Assembly: GCA_015492245.1 (NCBI GenBank)
Contig: WGFM01000030.1
Location: 1 to 32,389 of the forward strand
Direction of reading: 5' to 3'
DNA length: 32,389 nt
DNA from: Deltaproteobacteria bacterium
GTDB lineage: Bacteria; Desulfobacterota; GWC2-55-46; DRQE01
In this document: positions 3,806 to 13,492 of the stretch, in pieces
Position numbering within the stretch: the first letter of the stretch is position 1
How the letters are laid out: each line of letters begins with the position of its first letter
Program-made: the position numbers and the translations under genes
Notes under the pieces: model-generated
What the model was told of the DNA's origin: nothing
The model's database searches: none
The model's input: only the letters and a program-made list of their open reading frames with translations

Positions 3806-5173
3806 TCAGAAGAGCACCCGGTACCACAGCGTTGCCACAAGCCCTATTCCCAGAGCCACGGGCACCATGGCAACTGGATTGCCCCTGGTAATCCTTCCGG
3901 CAAGATAGATACTCCACAGCCCGCCTGCTGCAAAAAGTGCCATCTCCACAAGGCTTACAAACTGCGCTGAAACACCCATGGACACCATGGACTGAAAAAG
4001 GGGCTGTCCCAGCCCGAGCACAAGTGATAAGAGTGCCACAGGCCCGTATGCGTAACCGGTAACGGTAAAACCTTCGAATACAGAGCCACGAGGCCTTCCC
4101 GGAAGGACTGCCAGAAGTGTCAACCCTGAGAGCGCTGCCATAACAGCCAGCATGCTCCCAACCATGAATATGGTTATGCTTATTGCATCGAGATAGAGGA
4201 AGACCTCACCTGCCTCCGGCCAGTTCACCACAAGCCAGCGTGGCCCCGGGCCGCCCACGATATGGAGCAACCCCATGTTCAGAAACATGTCTCCTATGGC
4301 ATGTTTAAGCCCTATATACAGCGGGCTTACCTGCCAGTAGAACGCACCGAGGGCCAGTCCGGTGGCGGACAGAAGAAAGACTACCTCCCAGGGGTTCGGC
4401 TCTCTTCGGGCTATCTCCTCTACCTCTCTGCCAGGCCTTCTTATCTCAAGCCTCAGGGAGCCCTTCTCCCCTGGCCTTACACACCTGAAACACTCTATGC
4501 AGTTTGCGCTGGAGGCCTTGGTGGCGGTATTGATGAATGTGGGGCACGGATACCCCCTGCTCGACCGGCAGGCCCTCTCGAAGCCAATTGCCCCGAACCT
4601 TGAGAGCACACCAAGAAGTGGCCCCATCGGGCAGAGATACCTGCACCACACCCTTCTGCCGCTTGCGTATACATAGCCCACAACCACTGCAAGGATGGTG
4701 GTTCCCCCAAGCACCTCAAGGGTTGCAAGGGGATAATCCCTTACACCCACCACCTGGCCAAATATGGTTATAACTATAAAGCTTGCTATGGCAATCCAGT
4801 CTTTGCGCAACCATCTCGGGGGTGCGAAATCAAGCCCCCTTCTGCCTGCATACTCACTTGCAGCCCCCTGTGGGCAGAGCACGCCGCACCAGAGCCTTCC
4901 AGAAAGTATTACCGATAGAAAGAGCAGCGGAAACCACACTGCCCAGATCACAAAGTTGGCAAAGAGGCTAATGTTGTCGAAGATGGTGGCCTCTTCTTCG
5001 GGAAGGGGCAGAAAAGCAGGAACCACCACAAGTGCCACCATGAGGAGGAATACCACAAGGTGAACACGCCAGAACCTCTCCCTGTGCCTTACGAAGAACC
5101 CCTCTATCCTTTCTACAAGGGGTCTGCCGAGTGTCCTTCTCTTTTCTGTCATGCCAATGCTTCTGCTTTCCAT
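3806..5173 (-). CDS. FtrD/NapH-like 4Fe-4S membrane protein of the iron-uptake system
   Basis: A 455-residue polytopic inner-membrane protein. Hydrophobic segments flank two NapH-type motifs, WCGVLCPQGA (C96, C100) and WCRYLCPMGPLLG (C177, C181), followed by a cysteine cluster with C202, C210, C225, C228 and C231 in ACRSSRGYPCP and NCIECFRC. The usual fourth Cys of a CxxCxxCxxxCP ferredoxin motif is absent after C231 (VRPGEKG), so C202 or C210 may complete the cluster. In Bordetella FtrABCD and the Campylobacter P19 locus, the equivalent protein is thought to accept electrons during ferrous-iron oxidation and transport. ATG 5173 follows GGGAGTGGGAG, 13 bp after the FTR1 stop; an upstream in-frame Met would overlap the FTR1 gene by about 100 bp. 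Five or more further helices follow residue 260. Confidence 0.85.
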   Translation of the reverse strand: MESRSIGMTEKRRTLGRPLVERIEGFFVRHRERFWRVHLVVFLLMVALVVVPAFLPLPEEEATIFDNISLFANFVIWAVWFPLLFLSVILSGRLWCGVLCPQGAASEYAGRRGLDFAPPRWLRKDWIAIASFIVITIFGQVVGVRDYPLATLEVLGGTTILAVVVGYVYASGRRVWCRYLCPMGPLLGVLSRFGAIGFERACRSSRGYPCPTFINTATKASSANCIECFRCVRPGEKGSLRLEIRRPGREVEEIARREPNPWEVVFLLSATGLALGAFYWQVSPLYIGLKHAIGDMFLNMGLLHIVGGPGPRWLVVNWPEAGEVFLYLDAISITIFMVGSMLAVMAALSGLTLLAVLPGRPRGSVFEGFTVTGYAYGPVALLSLVLGLGQPLFQSMVSMGVSAQFVSLVEMALFAAGGLWSIYLAGRITRGNPVAMVPVALGIGLVATLWYRVLF

Positions 5174-6530: not shown

Positions 6531-7838
6531 TCATCTGTTGTGGCACTGCTGGCAGCCCACATTTGAAGGGAGACTCTTCCCTATCTGGTCACCCTGGACC
6601 ACGCCTGTAACATAGTCCCATCTCAGTGCATCGTAATAGGGACCCCCGTGGGCAAAGTGGCAGGTAAGGCAGAAGACCTTGTCCTCGTTGTCCGCGTCCG
6701 CGTAGTAGAACTCCTGGTTCAGGTTTGCATCGGTATTTGCAGCAGGTAGCTTGTAGCCATCTGGGATGGAGTTATAGTGTGCCCAGTCTATGGTGTCAAC
6801 TCCTGCCCCTGATACATCGCCATCATCTATGACCGCTGCCACGGGATGTCTGCGCCAGTCCTCCCCTGTTGCGTTGCCAGGGACCCTGACCTCATGGAAG
6901 AAGAGGTGACACTTGGCACACCACCCTGCTATCCCACTGGGTCTCGTGGCATGGTCGTTTGGACCCTTTATGCCATCGTAGACATTGTTGTTGGCAGCAA
7001 CCGTGGGAGTACCTGTGTAGACGGACCAGAGGGGAACGCCATTTACAACCACAGGCGTGTAATTGCCACCGTCAGAGAACTTGCCAGTAATGCCTCCAAC
7101 CCAGCTCTTCATCTCGTGCAGTCTGCCATTGCCCTGCTGATCCACCCCTGATGTGAAGGAGTGGCACACCCCGCAGACATCTCCGCTTTCTACTGTAACG
7201 GTGCCCATGGCAGCCCACAGGTTTCTGTATATGTTGGTCCCTGTGTAGTGATCATAGGGGTTTGGCAGCGGAGTATCTGTGCCATGGGGATTGTGGCATG
7301 TGGTGCATGTGAGTATGAGTTTTGAACTGTTTGGATTGCCAGGTATGAGGGTGGCAAGCCCCACGCTGTGGCCGTAACCAAGGGCTGTCTGGGAGCCTGC
7401 TGTGGTGAGGTCGAAACTCGAGTCAAGCTCGCTGGAGAAGTCTCCGCCTGCTCCAATCTGGCCAAAGTCCTTCGTCTGGTCCCAGTTGAGAAGTCCCCCA
7501 CTGTGCACTATTGGAGCCCTCTCTCCATGGGGAGGATGGGCTACATCCCACATGCTTCCGCCAACACCATGACACTGTAGACAGAGTTTGTGCATCTCTG
7601 TTCTTGACGGAACATCACCCCTTAAAAGCACTATGCTCCCACCCGTGGCACCCCCGAGGTTGTCAGGGATTGCAGTGCTTCCACCCTGGCTGTTGTGCAT
7701 GGTGTGGCAACTACCGCATACAAGCGGGCCTGCCCCCTTGTGGACAGCATGGGCAGGCTGACCGGAAAGACAGAGAATGACAAAGACAAACACCGGAAGT
7801 ATCACACACCCTGAAGCTGAATATCCATGATGTCGCAA
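6531..7838 (-). CDS. Multihaem c-type cytochrome, seven CXXCH sites (paralogue 1)
   Basis: A secreted cytochrome of 435 residues. Seven haem-binding sites are visible in order: CGSCH, CLQCH, CTTCH, CGVCH, CAKCH, CLTCH and CQQCH. The mature protein begins VHKGAGPL after a signal peptide ending QPAHA. Such proteins move electrons across the periplasm or at the outer surface in metal-respiring and sulfur-cycling anaerobes. The start is uncertain. An ATG at 7886 lies inside a terminator-like hairpin and has no ribosome site. TTG 7838 follows AAAAGGAG (a long 12-base spacing), gives a proper signal peptide and makes the gene exactly as long as its paralogue (1308 bp). It ends about 80 bp before the FTR1 Fur box, but I see no direct evidence of shared regulation. 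Confidence 0.82.
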   Translation of the reverse strand: MRHHGYSASGCVILPVFVFVILCLSGQPAHAVHKGAGPLVCGSCHTMHNSQGGSTAIPDNLGGATGGSIVLLRGDVPSRTEMHKLCLQCHGVGGSMWDVAHPPHGERAPIVHSGGLLNWDQTKDFGQIGAGGDFSSELDSSFDLTTAGSQTALGYGHSVGLATLIPGNPNSSKLILTCTTCHNPHGTDTPLPNPYDHYTGTNIYRNLWAAMGTVTVESGDVCGVCHSFTSGVDQQGNGRLHEMKSWVGGITGKFSDGGNYTPVVVNGVPLWSVYTGTPTVAANNNVYDGIKGPNDHATRPSGIAGWCAKCHLFFHEVRVPGNATGEDWRRHPVAAVIDDGDVSGAGVDTIDWAHYNSIPDGYKLPAANTDANLNQEFYYADADNEDKVFCLTCHFAHGGPYYDALRWDYVTGVVQGDQIGKSLPSNVGCQQCHNR

Positions 7839-7867
7839 GGCTGCATACCACTCCTTTTCACAAAACC

Positions 7868-7907
7868 AAAAAAAACACCCCGCCATGTGATGTAAAACTT
7901 GCGGGGC
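7868..7907 (-). terminator. Terminator-like hairpin before cytochrome paralogue 1
   Basis: On the minus strand CCCCGC (7906-7901) pairs with GCGGGG (7883-7878), with a G-T pair extending it to 7 bp. The loop is 17 bases and is followed by eight consecutive T (7875-7868). It can terminate transcripts of the upstream cytochrome gene or attenuate expression of the downstream one. Confidence 0.75.
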
Positions 7908-7980
7908 ATCCTCACCCTCTTCTTAATCGAGTCTTACTACAACCCTTGTATTATAAATGCGATCACCAACAGCGACTGCA

Positions 7981-9288
7981 TCACCTGTTGTGGCACAGCT
8001 GGCAGCCCTTGTTGGATGGTATCGCATTGGCACCCTGTGAGCCCGTGGATACAGTGGAGACATAGTCCCACCTCAGACCATCGAGGTATGGACCTGCATG
8101 GGCAAAATGGCATGTAAGGCAGAAGACCTTGTGGTTGTCTCCTCCACTGACGTCATCCATGCCGTTAAAGCTTGCTCCTGTGGTATCTGTCGGCAGATAG
8201 TAACTGTTGTCGGTGTAGAACTTGCTCGCCGTTACAGGAAGGGCCTGTCCAGCCTGAATCAATGCATCGTTGTAGTTGATTCTATCAAGCAGTGATACAT
8301 GACACCCCGTGGCACAGCCTGCTGCTGCAGCCCTGGGCATCATGGAGTTAACTGCATGTCTCCTTGAGTCAAGATCATTGGTGCGATCAAGGTTGGATGG
8401 TGTTATCTCCTCATGCCAGTTATCGTGGCACTGGGCACACCACCTCGACATGGTAACCTTCGATGTACCAGTGGTTGAACCAACCGGGTCAGTGCCCGTG
8501 CCATAGGAGTTGCTGTTGGCACTGTCGGTTAGGGGGTCACCGGTAAGGGTTCCTCTGTAAACAGGCCATATAACATTGCTGTCACTGTCAAGCTCATTGC
8601 CTCCGAAGTAGGAACCATTCACCCCACCCACATAGCTCCTGTGCCTGTAGTACTCCGTGGTGCCTGTGTAGAACTTTATACCCGAGTTCGCACCGGCCCC
8701 GGTGGGGTTGACCTTAAGGTTTCTGAAGAGGTTTATATTGGGATCGTCAAGGTCAGCTGTGCCATGTGGGTCGTGACAGTTGGTGCAGGTAAACTCTGGT
8801 ATCTGTGTGTCCCCACCTGGTGGGGTTACATCTGTCTCGCCAATGGAATGCCCATAGCCAAGGGACTTCTGTGTGGTTACATCCCAGGTTGTTGGATCGA
8901 TCTCCTTATAAAAGTTCCCACCAGAACCTATAAGGTTGAAGGGGTCATCATCTGTCCATGTGGCGGGACTCCACACCTTCGGGGCAATAACATCCTGTGG
9001 TGGATGAAGATCACCGGCCATGCTGCCGTTGGTGGCATGACACTGCAGACACAGTTTGTGCACCTCTGCCCTCGTGGTTACATTGCCCCTCAACAGAACC
9101 ACAGCACCACCTGTAGCCCCTCCAAGGTTGTCAGGGCTCGAGGCACTCCCACCCTGACTGTTGTGCATTGTATGGCAGCTGCCGCATGCAAGCGGGCCTG
9201 CCCCCTTGTGGACAGCTCCTGCAGGCCCTGTTGCGAAAAATATCAGAAAGAACGAGACGAGCAGACAAACACCATAATGAGGTGCCAT
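7981..9288 (-). CDS. Multihaem c-type cytochrome, six CXXCH plus one CX3CH site (paralogue 2)
   Basis: A paralogue of the downstream cytochrome, also 435 residues from ATG 9288. The N-terminus is nearly identical after processing (VHKGAGPLACGSCHTMHNSQ). Sites in order are CGSCH, CLQCH, CTNCH, CAQCH, CATGCH, CLTCH and CQLCH. Compared with paralogue 1 it lacks the fourth site (CGVCH) and instead has an unusual CX3CH, CATGCH, after RRHAVNS. The signal peptide MAPHYGVCLLVSFFL...GPAGA is good. No ribosome site stands close to ATG 9288, and an upstream GGAGG is about 20 bases away, so the start is only fairly sure. In-frame Met codons further up would give a non-signal N-terminus. Transcription probably begins at the promoter near 9500. 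Confidence 0.82.
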   Translation of the reverse strand: MAPHYGVCLLVSFFLIFFATGPAGAVHKGAGPLACGSCHTMHNSQGGSASSPDNLGGATGGAVVLLRGNVTTRAEVHKLCLQCHATNGSMAGDLHPPQDVIAPKVWSPATWTDDDPFNLIGSGGNFYKEIDPTTWDVTTQKSLGYGHSIGETDVTPPGGDTQIPEFTCTNCHDPHGTADLDDPNINLFRNLKVNPTGAGANSGIKFYTGTTEYYRHRSYVGGVNGSYFGGNELDSDSNVIWPVYRGTLTGDPLTDSANSNSYGTGTDPVGSTTGTSKVTMSRWCAQCHDNWHEEITPSNLDRTNDLDSRRHAVNSMMPRAAAAGCATGCHVSLLDRINYNDALIQAGQALPVTASKFYTDNSYYLPTDTTGASFNGMDDVSGGDNHKVFCLTCHFAHAGPYLDGLRWDYVSTVSTGSQGANAIPSNKGCQLCHNR

Positions 9289-9407
9289 CCTGAGAAGAGA
9301 TGGGACGTATCCGATACCTCCTGAAGAACCCTGGCCAGAGGATATGCATCTATTTTGGGAAAGATAAGCCACCTGACTCTCCTGCACTTCCATCCCTGTT
9401 AGAACCC

Positions 9408-9445
9408 AAAAAATACCCCAGAACATTACAAATCCATCCTGGGGT
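9408..9445 (-). terminator. Terminator-like hairpin in the leader of cytochrome paralogue 2
   Basis: On the minus strand ACCCCAG (9445-9439) pairs perfectly with CTGGGGT (9421-9415) across a 17-base loop, followed by A and six T (9413-9408). It lies downstream of a good promoter and upstream of the gene, so it would act as a leader attenuator. An upstream CCTGG (9476-9472) could pair with CCAGG (9443-9439) and compete with the stem. Confidence 0.65.
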
Positions 9446-9487
9446 GCATCATCGCAGTAATTACTTCAAGACCAGGTTACGGTTATA

Positions 9488-9516
9488 ATTGTAATATAGA
9501 TAGCCAGGGATTTCAA
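9488..9516 (-). promoter_or_regulatory. Sigma-70-type promoter for cytochrome paralogue 2
   Basis: On the minus strand TTGAAA (9516-9511), a 17-base spacer and TACAAT (9493-9488) make a strong vegetative-type promoter. Transcription would begin near 9481, about 190 bases before the coding start, leaving room for the hairpin leader. Confidence 0.65.
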
Positions 9517-9727
9517 GCTATTTCTTTCCACCCTTACCCAACTACTGCCCTAATAGACAAGGTAACGGTCTGCATGTCCCACCAGGATTTTCAAAAGAGA
9601 AGATTGTTGTTGATGAACAAGTCATTTATTCTATCCACTCGTCTATTTACCCATTCCATCCCCCTTTCAAAAAAGAAAAGAAATGGTATAGTTTAGTATC
9701 AAAGAAACAAAGCGCAAGGAGGAGCCC

Positions 9728-9886
9728 ATGAAGAGCTACAGGTGCAAGATATGTGGATACATATACGACCCTCTGAAGGGTGATCAGAAGGCCGGCATTC
9801 CAGGGGGCACACCATTCGAGCAACTACCTGATGACTGGGTATGTCCTGTATGTGGAGCCCCTAAGAAGCTGTTTGAGGAGGTATGA
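9728..9886 (+). CDS. Rubredoxin
   Basis: A complete 52-residue rubredoxin. It has the two CPxCG-type knuckles CKICG (C6, C9) and CPVCG (C39, C42), which bind one iron, and the family's conserved YIYDPLKGD and DDWVCP segments. AAGGAGG lies just upstream. The stop overlaps the start region of the flavodiiron gene. In anaerobes rubredoxin donates electrons to flavodiiron proteins for O2 or NO reduction, and the tight linkage here supports that pairing. Confidence 0.97.
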
Positions 9887-9888
9887 CG

Positions 9889-11079
9889 ATGGCTACCACA
9901 ACGGAGATGAGGCCGGGCCTGCACCATGTGGGTGTAAGGGACTGGAGCCGCCGTCAGTTCGATGCCCTCATATCCATTCCCCATGGGACGAGCTACAACG
10001 CATACCTGATACAGGGCAACAACAAGACCGCCCTGGTTGACACAGTGGCCCCGGGGTTCGAAGGGGAGCTGGCGAGAAAGGTTGAACGGATAATGGGGAT
10101 TGGAGATATAGACTATGTGGTGATGAACCATGCAGAGCCCGACCATGCAGGTGCGATACCCTGGATACTCAAGAGAAACGGAAGGGCACGGCTTCTCACA
10201 ACCAGAAAAGGGGCCAGGATGGCGGCCAGGTTCCACAATGTGCCAGAAGACAGAATAGATATTGTAACAGAGGATACAACCATAGAGCTTGGAAGAAGGA
10301 CCCTTCGTTTCATCGATGCACCATTTCTGCACTGGCCAGAGACCATGTTCACCTATCTTGTAGAAGACAGGGTGCTCTTTCCATGCGATTTCTTCGGTGC
10401 CCATACAGCCTTCGGGCTTTACGCAGACGAGGTGGAAGACACCATCTACCATGCAAAAAGATACTTCGGAGAGATAATGATGCCCTTCCGCCCGATGGCA
10501 AACAGGGCACTTACCAAGGTAAAAGGGCTCGATGTGGAGCTCATTGCCCCTGGGCACGGCCCTGTATACAGGGATTGTTCGGCCATACTCGATGCATATA
10601 CCAGATGGTGTACGGGGCAGACCAGGAACAAGGCCACCGTCATATATGTGAGCATGTGGCAGTCAACAGAACGAATGATAAACACCCTGGTGGATGTGCT
10701 CCAGCGGTGTGGCGTGGAGGTGGCCCTCTACAACCTTGCCTCATCCGACATTGGCGATGTGGCAGCAGAGCTTGTTGACTCAAGGGCCATGGTCATGGGC
10801 ACACCTGTGGTCCTGGGTGGCATGCATCCGCTTACGATGTATGCAGCATATCTGCTGAAGGCATTGAGACCGCCTGTGAAATACGCTGTAATACTCAGCT
10901 CTTATGGCTGGGCAGGTGGCGCCCTCAAGCAGGCAGCAGAGATGCTCGCCCCCTTAAAGCTCGAGGTGGTGGGAACTGTGGAGACAAGCGGCCCTCCGAC
11001 AGAGGAGGACATGAAAAAAGTAGAGGATGCCGCAGGAACACTTGCAGAAAAGATGAAAGGACAGGGCTCCGCTGTTTAG
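9889..11079 (+). CDS. Flavodiiron protein (rubredoxin:oxygen oxidoreductase, FprA type)
   Basis: A 396-residue class A flavodiiron protein. The N-terminal metallo-beta-lactamase domain holds the diiron ligands HAEPDH (H81, E83, D85, H86), H148 in LHWPETMF, D167 in FPCDFFG and H223 in PGHGPVYR. From about residue 250 a flavodoxin domain follows with the FMN loop VSMWQSTERM and the later SSYGWAGGA. The enzyme reduces O2 to water (or NO to N2O) with electrons from rubredoxin. ATG 9889 is seven bases after GAGGAGG, which lies inside the rubredoxin gene. An ATG at 9883 overlaps the rubredoxin stop but is too close to the ribosome site. The two genes are translationally coupled. Confidence 0.96.
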   Translation: MATTTEMRPGLHHVGVRDWSRRQFDALISIPHGTSYNAYLIQGNNKTALVDTVAPGFEGELARKVERIMGIGDIDYVVMNHAEPDHAGAIPWILKRNGRARLLTTRKGARMAARFHNVPEDRIDIVTEDTTIELGRRTLRFIDAPFLHWPETMFTYLVEDRVLFPCDFFGAHTAFGLYADEVEDTIYHAKRYFGEIMMPFRPMANRALTKVKGLDVELIAPGHGPVYRDCSAILDAYTRWCTGQTRNKATVIYVSMWQSTERMINTLVDVLQRCGVEVALYNLASSDIGDVAAELVDSRAMVMGTPVVLGGMHPLTMYAAYLLKALRPPVKYAVILSSYGWAGGALKQAAEMLAPLKLEVVGTVETSGPPTEEDMKKVEDAAGTLAEKMKGQGSAV

Positions 11080-11341: not shown

Positions 11342-13492
11342 TCATTTTTTATCATCCTCATACGCCACAACCCTGTCCTTGCCACTCACCTTTGCCAGAT
11401 ACATCGCCTGATCCGCAAGCTGTATGAGTTCCTCGTAGCTCTTTGCATGTGATCTGGGGTATGTAGCCACACCGACGCTTATGGTGACATTTCTTTCCAT
11501 CCAGTCGTATACACGGGCCTTTACCCGCTTCCTCATCCTCTCACCAAACTTCTTTGCATCCTCTGTGTCCGTATCCACAAGGACAACCACGAACTCCTCC
11601 CCACCGTATCTTGAGGCAAGGTCCTCCTTTCTCACATTCTCCTTCATGATGGAGGCAACCCCTTTGAGCACCTCGTCCCCCTTGTCGTGTCCATAGGTGT
11701 CGTTTATGGACTTGAAGTTGTCCACATCGAAGAGGAGTATTGACAGGGAGTTCCCATGCCTTACAGCCATTGCCCACTCTTCCTCAAGGCGAGAATTCAG
11801 ATAACGGCGGTTGTAAAGCCCTGTGAGGGCATCTGTTATGGAGAGTTCCTGTATCCTCTGGTGCATTATGGCGTTATCAAGGGCTATGGAAATCTGGTTC
11901 GCAAGGTAGTCGAAAATGTTTGCCTCGTCTTCCGAATACTCGTTTATGCTACCAAGCACAAGCACACCAAGAACCCTGTCTCTGTAAGAAAGGGGTATGT
12001 AGGCAACCTCTCCTGGTGGGGTGGCTATGAAGCCGAGCTCAAGGACCTCGTCCATCGTCCGCTGTGGAAGGGATATGATGAAAGTTCTATTCTCCTGTGC
12101 CGCCCTGCCAGGATAGCCCTCTCCCATCTGCAGGGGCTTGATTTCAGCCTTCGTTCCGTACATCACCCGTGGGACAAGACGGGTATTGCCCTCCTCACAA
12201 AGGTATACTATACCCATGTGGGACTCTGTAACATTGACAGCTATGTTGAGCATCTTCTCCATTAGCTCTTTGAGGTCAAGTGTTGACATGAGCAGCTTGG
12301 CTATCTCGTTGTGTTTTTTGAGTCTTTCTTCTTTCTTCTTTATGCCCTCCGCCATCCTGTTGAAGCCGTCACCAAGTGTTTCGAACTGATCTCCCGTCCT
12401 TATGTGAACGGAGATGTTCCTCTCTCCCCTACCGAATGCATCCATGGCACGGGCAAGGGTCTCGAGGGGACGTGTTATGTCGGCCTTGACAAAGGCGGTT
12501 ATTACTATCGATATAACAAGCCCCACAAGGGCTACAACGAGTATGCCCTTGCCCATGTTGTACAGCACGATGGTCTGTATCTTCTTTGCGGGCATGCTCA
12601 CCCCTACGGCACCTATTATGCTGTTTTTGCTGTCCATGAGGGGCTCGTATGCCACAAGATGTTCAACATCGCCTATCGTGAGGGTTCCATAGTAGGGTTT
12701 GCCGAAGGCTATCTCCTCGCGCAGCTTCTCTGGCATGCCCTGCCCCACAGCCCATGTGCTTCTTGGCAGCGATGCGGTAGAATGCAGGATGAATGTCTGC
12801 GGGCTCTGCCCCGCAAATAGAGCCATCTCCACGCCGAACCTCTTGTAGACGGCATTACCCAGCCAGGGGTCTCCTGTGAGCAGGCTGCCTGCAACAAGGG
12901 CTCCTATGGTCATGTCCCCACTCTTTATTGGCGACACCACGAACTGCACCAGCCCAAGGTCTTTCACACGCTTGGCAAGGTCCTCATCCTCGTTTCTGAG
13001 AAACTCTCTGCTCACAAGCTCTGTGGCACTGGCCTGCTTCCCGCTCAAGAGTGCGGTGGAGAGAAGCCCCCTCAAGGAGAGTATGTCACCCCTCCTATCG
13101 GTCCTTCTGCTTATAACCCTCTGGTGGGAGTCCACCACGGTGAGTATGTCTATGTAGGGGTGGTTCTTGCCAAAGTCAAGAAGCAGTGTCTGCAGCTTTG
13201 TTGCATCCTTCTTGATTACACCATCCCTTGACTCCTGCCTGCCTGTAAACTGGGTGGTAACACCCCTGATGAGGGCCACATGGCCATCGCAGACCTCTCT
13301 CGCCCCCTTGAGGTTTACCTTTATCGAGTTGAGTCCCTCCTCGTAGAGCAATCCCTGGAACAGATAGAACATTATCACGGCAAGCACAGACACCGGCACC
13401 CAGAAGACTATACTGAGTGCAATGAGGGTCTTCGTGCCAACGCCAAGTCTCGGTCTAAAAAGCCTCATCTCAAACTTCTTTCTGGGTGCCAT
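11342..13492 (-). CDS. Membrane diguanylate cyclase: dCache-HAMP-GAF-GGDEF
   Basis: A 716-residue inner-membrane sensor. A membrane helix at about 22-47 and another at 315-336 flank a periplasmic double-Cache-type ligand domain (50-310). A HAMP linker (about 336-388) follows, then a GAF domain (395-545) and a GGDEF catalytic domain (553-712). The active site reads GGEEF (630-634), which is competent for making c-di-GMP from two GTP. The inhibitory I-site RxxD is present as RKED (621-624), five residues before it, so product inhibition is expected. The gene is divergent from the PilZ-like sigma-54 activator of the amyloid cluster, which makes a local c-di-GMP circuit plausible. The ribosome site (AGGTTGAG) is weak. 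Confidence 0.93.
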   Translation of the reverse strand: MAPRKKFEMRLFRPRLGVGTKTLIALSIVFWVPVSVLAVIMFYLFQGLLYEEGLNSIKVNLKGAREVCDGHVALIRGVTTQFTGRQESRDGVIKKDATKLQTLLLDFGKNHPYIDILTVVDSHQRVISRRTDRRGDILSLRGLLSTALLSGKQASATELVSREFLRNEDEDLAKRVKDLGLVQFVVSPIKSGDMTIGALVAGSLLTGDPWLGNAVYKRFGVEMALFAGQSPQTFILHSTASLPRSTWAVGQGMPEKLREEIAFGKPYYGTLTIGDVEHLVAYEPLMDSKNSIIGAVGVSMPAKKIQTIVLYNMGKGILVVALVGLVISIVITAFVKADITRPLETLARAMDAFGRGERNISVHIRTGDQFETLGDGFNRMAEGIKKKEERLKKHNEIAKLLMSTLDLKELMEKMLNIAVNVTESHMGIVYLCEEGNTRLVPRVMYGTKAEIKPLQMGEGYPGRAAQENRTFIISLPQRTMDEVLELGFIATPPGEVAYIPLSYRDRVLGVLVLGSINEYSEDEANIFDYLANQISIALDNAIMHQRIQELSITDALTGLYNRRYLNSRLEEEWAMAVRHGNSLSILLFDVDNFKSINDTYGHDKGDEVLKGVASIMKENVRKEDLASRYGGEEFVVVLVDTDTEDAKKFGERMRKRVKARVYDWMERNVTISVGVATYPRSHAKSYEELIQLADQAMYLAKVSGKDRVVAYEDDKK

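Follow-up and report, generated by a model that had tools for sequence, protein, structure and literature searches.

Putative ANTAR-type antitermination leaders ahead of OmcS-family multihaem cytochrome genes in a GWC2-55-46 deltaproteobacterium

The stretch of DNA analysed in this work (hereafter, the window) corresponds to positions 1 to 32,389 (32,389 nucleotides) of contig WGFM01000030.1, belonging to the assembly GCA_015492245.1 of a Deltaproteobacteria bacterium (Desulfobacterota; GWC2-55-46; DRQE01). Its minus strand harbors two tandem multihaem cytochrome genes, each accompanied by an upstream terminator-like element, as follows:

6531-7886, minus strand: OmcS-family multihaem cytochrome gene P0002, assigned through a profile of 16 homologues that matches OmcS
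7981-9426, minus strand: OmcS-family multihaem cytochrome gene P0001, the upstream member of the tandem pair, assigned through the same profile
7868-7906, minus strand: intrinsic terminator hairpin followed by T8, between the two cytochrome genes and ahead of gene 6531-7886
9408-9444, minus strand: intrinsic terminator hairpin (10-11 bp, 9-nt loop) followed by T6, in the leader of gene 7981-9426
9438-9476, minus strand: possible competing stem CCUGG/CCAGG (CCTGG at 9476-9472, CCAGG at 9442-9438), read from the sequence
9488-9516, minus strand: promoter-like TTGAAA-17-TACAAT, a consensus match (10 of 12 positions)

OmcS is the nanowire cytochrome of Geobacter. The profile of 16 homologues, in which both window proteins are included, matched OmcS (6ef8/6nef) with an E value of 6.7e-20 along profile positions 23-401 of 413, most of the profile length, and OmcS was the sole PDB sequence matched at E <= 0.001; the two proteins were assigned to the OmcS family according to this similarity. 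Doubled CXXCH motifs were recognised with Pfam. A third paralogue is present in the same genome (G000:C21), and homologues were retrieved from 20 of the 59 genomes considered, this one included. The first ATG codons of the two genes (7886 and 9426) fall inside hairpins, so the true starts are probably located downstream: at the TTG 7838-7836 rather than the ATG 7886 for gene 6531-7886, and at some point downstream of 9426 for gene 7981-9426. Divergent rubredoxin-like (named by eye) and flavodiiron-type genes (9729-11079) adjoin the cytochrome pair, and a GGDEF gene is found at 11342-13492.

A sequence-only reading of the window had described, ahead of both genes and on their own strand, terminator-like hairpins with a 7-bp stem, a 17-base loop, and runs of eight and six T. 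These elements were confirmed: the T runs lie at 7875-7868 and 9413-9408, and an equal or better terminator appeared in only 5 (7906-7868) and 1 (9444-9408) out of 5000 dinucleotide-shuffled 100-nt leaders. The 7-bp stem with its 17-base loop is literally present, and RNAfold pairs more bases, with 13 pairs in the 7906-7868 hairpin (core arms 7906-7901 and 7883-7878), five of which involve T-run bases, and with 11 pairs in the 9444-9408 hairpin (arms 9444-9435 and 9425-9416), which brings its loop to 9 nt. Under one definition applied to both strands of the whole window, 10 terminator-like hairpins were counted versus 2.8 expected (40 shuffles); when the scan was restricted to loops of 3-8 nt, neither hairpin was listed in its known form. 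As for overall folding, the 142-nt leader of gene 6531-7886 was more stable than its shuffles (z -2.31, 2 of 200 shuffles), and the 201-nt leader of gene 7981-9426 did not fold better than its shuffles (z +0.52).

A good promoter had also been proposed before the 9444-9408 hairpin. The site itself, TTGAAA-17-TACAAT, does exist at 9516-9488, but such sites occur at chance frequency, six having been found between 5000 and 13000 versus 6.4 expected. Since this promoter-like site is 5' of the hairpin and no plausible same-strand gene end is nearby, the 9444-9408 hairpin is placed in a leader. The competing stem CCTGG/CCAGG suggested by the same reading is present and partly formed in the truncated fold. 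The 7906-7868 hairpin, in turn, is intercistronic, and all or part of its role could be to end transcription of the preceding gene 7981-9426.

The DNA upstream of the cytochrome genes was read in 31 loci (a few of which begin inside the gene), and a recurring layout emerged, consisting of a TTGACA-type promoter, a first hairpin (hairpin 1, U[GAYGNN]G; loops are given in square brackets), a short linker, a second one (hairpin 2, GAGGU[RANGNN(N)]GCCUC), a terminator that shares with hairpin 2 the arm GCCUC (3' in the hairpin, 5' in the terminator), and the cytochrome gene. The third paralogue (G000:C21) displays this full anatomy. Eleven clear leaders were aligned with MAFFT as a seed (alignment A2), L012 being excluded as misaligned, and used to build a covariance model (R1); a second model (R2) was obtained from 27 leaders (alignment A5), whose rows were fitted to the model. 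In A2, five of the six hairpin-1 pairs vary on both sides, and the covariation score was reached by none of 500 shuffles. In A5, 7 of 11 pairs vary on both sides, with a score of 0.432 versus 0.169 in shuffled alignments (0 of 500), a value to be read considering that fitting the rows to the model favours that structure.

Matches to R1 at E <= 0.01 were found in 29 of the 59 genomes, including the one studied here and the seeds, which match by construction; those near E 0.01 include chance ones, such as L067 and L075, which fall within ORFs. Within a set of 69 named loci, mostly from 'Deltaproteobacteria' MAGs, 19 matches at E <= 2e-4 were distributed in 17 loci, nine of the 19 being seeds. 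Among the 35 loci with tblastn E <= 4e-40, 16 have a leader recognised by R1 ahead of the OmcS-family gene, compared to 1 of 34 among the other loci. R1 detected no leader in the remaining 19 of these 35 best cytochrome loci, which include two loci that begin inside the gene (L082 and L108) and L079, the closest relative of gene 6531-7886; in this relative (L079/L004), missed by the models, a similar hairpin pair is readable by eye.

The A5 leaders contain two stem-loops of at least 3 bp joined by a linker of 3-18 nt, with no clear hairpin 1 in three of the 27 rows (L096, L115, and L037). The loop of hairpin 1 consists of six bases in 22 of 27 rows, and that of hairpin 2 of six bases in 8 and seven in 19. 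Guanine at loop position 4 is found in both hairpins: hairpin 2 has A2 and G4 in all 27 rows, and the six-base loops of hairpin 1 have G4 in 22 of 22 and A2 in 21 of 22 cases. Adenine at loop position 1 is not the rule in A5, where this position is occupied by G in all 22 six-base loops of hairpin 1 and by G (19), A (6), or U (2) in the 27 loops of hairpin 2. Because the A1 loop rule is not respected, these leaders are not unreserved members of the published ANTAR-target family; by analogy, they may work like an ANTAR-target RNA.

The overlap of hairpin 2 with the terminator was evaluated by searching for a partner of its 7-nt 3' arm before a T run. This partner was present in 14 of the 27 leaders, versus a rate of 5.9% when the arms were shuffled, and lacking in the other 13; a looser version gave 18 of 27 (13% in the shuffled-arm control). 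The data show the terminators, a conserved dual-hairpin fold, and, for roughly one half to two thirds of the leaders, an overlap between both. The same test with 5-nt arms (22 of 27, with a control of 54%, 580/1080) was replaced by the 6-7 nt one, and the core pattern GGTGANGN(2-3)GCC alone was uninformative, with 83 sites in the genome and two in the window versus 0.6 expected. Two further aspects of these leaders were observed: L105 carries a tandem pair of complete promoter/dual-hairpin attenuators (4650-4836) with one OmcS-like gene downstream, and the leaders of L003, L016, L019, L020, and L029 share, by eye, the upstream promoter core TTGACA...TTAAAATCTGTTAAT or one near to it, a likeness going beyond what the sigma-70 hexamers need.

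The elements recognised within the leaders of the window are the following:

7929-7945, minus strand: candidate hairpin 1, GGGUU[GUAGUAA]GACUC, from the MFE of 7951-7904
7904-7917, minus strand: candidate hairpin 2, GGGU[GAGGAU]GCCC, from the MFE fold, the R2 match, and the background terminator scan
9445-9456, minus strand: weak mini-hairpin UGC[GAUGAU]GCA adjoining the terminator, from the sequence; not a detectable family member

Truncated right after hairpin 2 (7951-7904), the leader of gene 6531-7886 folds into two hairpins, 11 nt apart and both with a U.G closing pair; the candidate hairpin 1 keeps G1 and G4 and has U, not A, at position 2, and the 3' arm of the candidate hairpin 2 is part of the 5' arm of the terminator. 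In the fold of the full leader, hairpin 1 stays and the remainder becomes the terminator, with hairpin 2 dismantled. The covariance search of the leaders and their homologues, indicated by the sequence-only reading as the way to check its proposal, revealed a conserved leader in the relatives, but the window leaders themselves are below significance with both models. R1 gave 4.3 bits (E 7.2, not significant) at 7923-7890 and no match in the 9480-9405 leader; R2 matched 7950-7901 with 7.2 bits (E 2, fourth of 18 matches, not significant window-wide), which is the best match within 7700-9600 (E 0.12), and gave a 1.6-bit fragment on the leader of gene 7981-9426.

Under the strict loop rule, the 7945-7904 leader fails, hairpin 1 breaking A2. 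We also applied a relaxed rule, loosened at loop-1 position 2 after having seen the 7951-7904 leader, with which this leader complies. Such pairs were obtained from 10 of 40,000 dinucleotide shuffles and from 17 of the 27 family rows; they were counted at six places in the window and 44 times over 1.2 million strand-bases of related loci, a count to which the family members contribute. Moreover, none of 231 background terminators has an overlapping mini-hairpin of a stringency equal to that of 7904-7917 (five have a weaker one); this is modest evidence, since the scan, with its strict terminator rule, recovered 4 of 19 model matches and other loop letters at the same stringency gave from 0 to 5 of 231.

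The 9480-9439 leader does not follow the loop rule of the lineage and contains no recognisable pair, and the mini-hairpin 9445-9456 is absent from the MFE of the truncated leader. The elements ahead of the two genes are not equivalent, one leader being a divergent dual hairpin and the other being devoid of a recognisable pair. Regarding transcription, the -10-like TATAAT at 7955-7950 lacks a good -35, and a transcript begun from it would have its 5' end in hairpin 1, which makes read-through from the upstream gene the likelier source; located between tandem genes, the divergent leader of gene 6531-7886 would probably govern read-through from gene 7981-9426. The leader of the latter combines a promoter-like site and a terminator without a clear pair, so its control is uncertain.

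ANTAR genes were found in all 59 genomes, this one included; hence, their co-occurrence with the leaders says little. The genome studied here has two, on contigs C17 and C9, the latter near an ammonium-transporter-like gene (named by eye). Out of 119 ANTAR matches, 106 were read (the other 13 include a partial match in G021): among the 58 genomes read, the SQxEN domain is present in 51 and both ANTAR types in 43, and the co-occurrence of this subtype with the leader was therefore unusable as a test. Of the 23 genomes with an R1 match at E < 1e-3, two yielded no SQxEN domain from the ANTAR matches that were read; one of these two, G015, has a strong R1 match.

On the other hand, the leaders are physically linked to SQxEN ANTAR genes: in five genomes, one of which is outside the class, an SQxEN REC-ANTAR gene is located 0.15-3.9 kb upstream of a leader. 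The C17 protein shares 51-56% identity with the REC-ANTAR proteins of G010, G058, G056, and the GWF2_42_12 MAG (L105), whose genes stand ahead of such leaders. The order in G010 is ANTAR gene, dual hairpin, and OmcS-like gene, all within 1.1 kb (start to start), the R2 score of this leader being only 13 bits. Searching 297 genomes phylum-wide, R2 gave matches in seven, six within the class (this one included) and one, G151, outside. In G151, which was not used in model building and was found only after R2 had been fixed, the leader precedes another multihaem cytochrome; upstream of it, at a distance of 3.9 kb on that contig and in the same orientation, there is a gene for an SQKEN REC-ANTAR protein with 55% identity to that of C17.

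The SQ.EN motif of these proteins aligns with SMNKR of EutV. In the alignment to EutV (6wsh), the SQxEN proteins have Q at the positions of R168 and M172, and the C9 protein keeps R and M; in the accessible part of PMC8934654, these EutV residues are described as RNA contacts and M172 is reported as essential. With loops off the published A1/G4 code and two EutV RNA contacts lost, the subtype would represent a variant.

Leaders were also observed at other genes. In G000:C12 and G057:C40, they precede seemingly similar beta-propeller lipoproteins downstream of ccsA-like genes (names by eye): the copy at G000:C12:67145-67193 (L152, about 2646-2694), after ResB/CcsA-like genes, has hairpin 2 and a strong terminator without a clear hairpin 1, and the full dual hairpin is found at G057:C40:24101. 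In L074 (G018:C97:10501-10544), an R1/R2 match precedes a spore-coat-U-like secreted protein (by eye), and the targets may thus include surface fibres. The G151 leader (L290 1505-1610, G151:C222) is a dual hairpin without a terminator; a translational version is suggested by its hairpin 2, whose arm CCUCG is the complement of the CGAGG found at the Shine-Dalgarno site. In L149 (about 3130-3060, minus strand; G000:C9), a terminator-like hairpin precedes a P-II-like gene, together with a mini-hairpin read by eye, GGGC[AAGGGC]GCCC, of the classical A1/G4 kind, on which the other ANTAR protein possibly acts. Beside the cytochrome clusters of L103 (3041-4102) and L148 (46-1113), response regulators of REC-HD-GYP-like type were recognised by eye.

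In the model that we propose, the OmcS-family cytochrome genes of this lineage would be under transcription attenuation: by default, the nascent leader would fold into an intrinsic terminator; an activated SQxEN REC-ANTAR response regulator would hold the pair of small hairpins, and hairpin 2, once held, would take up the 5' arm of the terminator, allowing the RNA polymerase to read through. Of the two window leaders, that of gene 6531-7886 would be a divergent copy placed between tandem genes. ANTAR-type antitermination is, with good confidence, the best account for the OmcS-family genes of the lineage, and its full form, with SQxEN proteins as the antiterminators, is the best explanation overall and a moderately probable one. 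It likely applies to the downstream window gene 6531-7886; for the upstream gene 7981-9426, we put it forward only tentatively, the balance being somewhat against it. ANTAR binding, its dependence on phosphorylation, conditional read-through, and the functioning of the window copies are what we infer from these data. Accounting for the hairpins, the sequence-only reading had invoked conditional termination by a leader or riboswitch: conditional termination finds good support in the conservation of the leader in the gene family, third paralogue included, and the riboswitch has given way to a protein-responsive, ANTAR-type antitermination leader as the best-supported class.

A different possibility is that the window elements are unregulated, the 7906-7868 hairpin terminating gene 7981-9426 about 75 nt past its stop and the 9444-9408 hairpin being a constitutive partial attenuator. 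This would fit the position of the former between tandem genes, the scores of the window leaders below covariance-model significance, and a TATAAT that, judging from its sequence, would start transcription inside hairpin 1; it does not fit the region near 9444, where no plausible same-strand gene end exists (if one disregards an ORF that runs antisense to the flavodiiron-type gene, the next is at 11342), nor a third paralogue and many relatives having structured leaders at the same place. We consider it unlikely, albeit with appreciable weight.

It is far less probable, and in our opinion very improbable, that a small molecule reads the leaders, either through a GEMM/cyclic dinucleotide module, as for omcST in Geobacter, or through a new riboswitch. 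The gene family is the same and the leader is terminator-based, a GGDEF gene is nearby, and REC-HD-GYP-like proteins stand beside relatives; against this, the search of 7700-9700 with Rfam gave no match up to E 5, neither GEMM (whose consensus had already been noted as absent) nor any other family, and 14 related loci gave sub-threshold matches only, none at the leaders. Furthermore, two hairpins of 4-6 bp with loops of 6-7 nt are small for an aptamer, and the linkage is with ANTAR genes. An improbable reading, too, is that another RNA-binding protein binds the dual hairpins, or that the action is translational, the ANTAR linkage being incidental. The loop code unlike A1/G4, the SQxEN proteins without the two EutV contacts, the leaders failing the strict terminator test, and the complementarity at the Shine-Dalgarno site of G151 point in this direction; the dual-hairpin/terminator overlap, in contrast, is like that of ANTAR systems, and each of the five linked ANTAR proteins belongs to the SQxEN subtype, though most genomes have both types.

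Extending the ANTAR-type model, there is about an even chance that a dedicated SQxEN ANTAR subfamily, whose RNA code would be shifted to a Y-G closing pair and an R-A-N-G loop, controls a class-wide antitermination regulon for extracellular electron transfer, of which the tandem cytochromes of the window would be divergent members. If so, the regulon would include OmcS-type and other multihaem cytochromes, a beta-propeller lipoprotein beside genes for cytochrome c maturation, and a surface protein resembling spore coat U, and it would represent a protein-based counterpart of the GEMM control of omcST in Geobacter. Moreover, the changed loop code pairs with changed RNA-contact residues, making ANTAR specificity directly testable. 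According to the accessible parts of PMC3369931 and PMC8164766, ANTAR antitermination outside actinobacteria is tied mainly to nitrogen use. Our literature search retrieved no paper combining 'ANTAR domain' and 'extracellular electron transfer'; subscription papers were mostly outside its scope, so absence from print is not established.

Compared to known systems, the leaders of this lineage share with the ANTAR-target RNAs (EutV/eut, NasR/nasF, AmiR/amiE) two short hairpins with loops of about six bases, G4, the short linker, the overlap of the second hairpin with an intrinsic terminator, and an ANTAR gene in the genome; in addition, the eut operon has internal attenuators (accessible part of PMC3369931). 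They differ from these RNAs in loop position 1, which is mostly G, in the nearly invariant A2, in the hairpin-2 loop, often of 7 nt, in the closing pair, mostly U.G versus the C:G preferred by NasR (accessible part of PMC7496416), and in their targets, which are cytochrome and surface-protein genes. The window cytochromes are distant in sequence from OmcS (PDB 6EF8, 6NEF). The GEMM-Ib riboswitches found at cytochrome genes of Geobacter, omcST among them, act on the same kind of gene through a terminator-capable leader (accessible part of PMC6456294), whereas the window leaders have no Rfam aptamer and an anatomy that fits protein-bound hairpins. An ANTAR-type leader on nanowire-type cytochromes would show that one extracellular electron-transfer machinery is, in different bacteria, under different leader-RNA switches, GEMM in Geobacter and ANTAR here.
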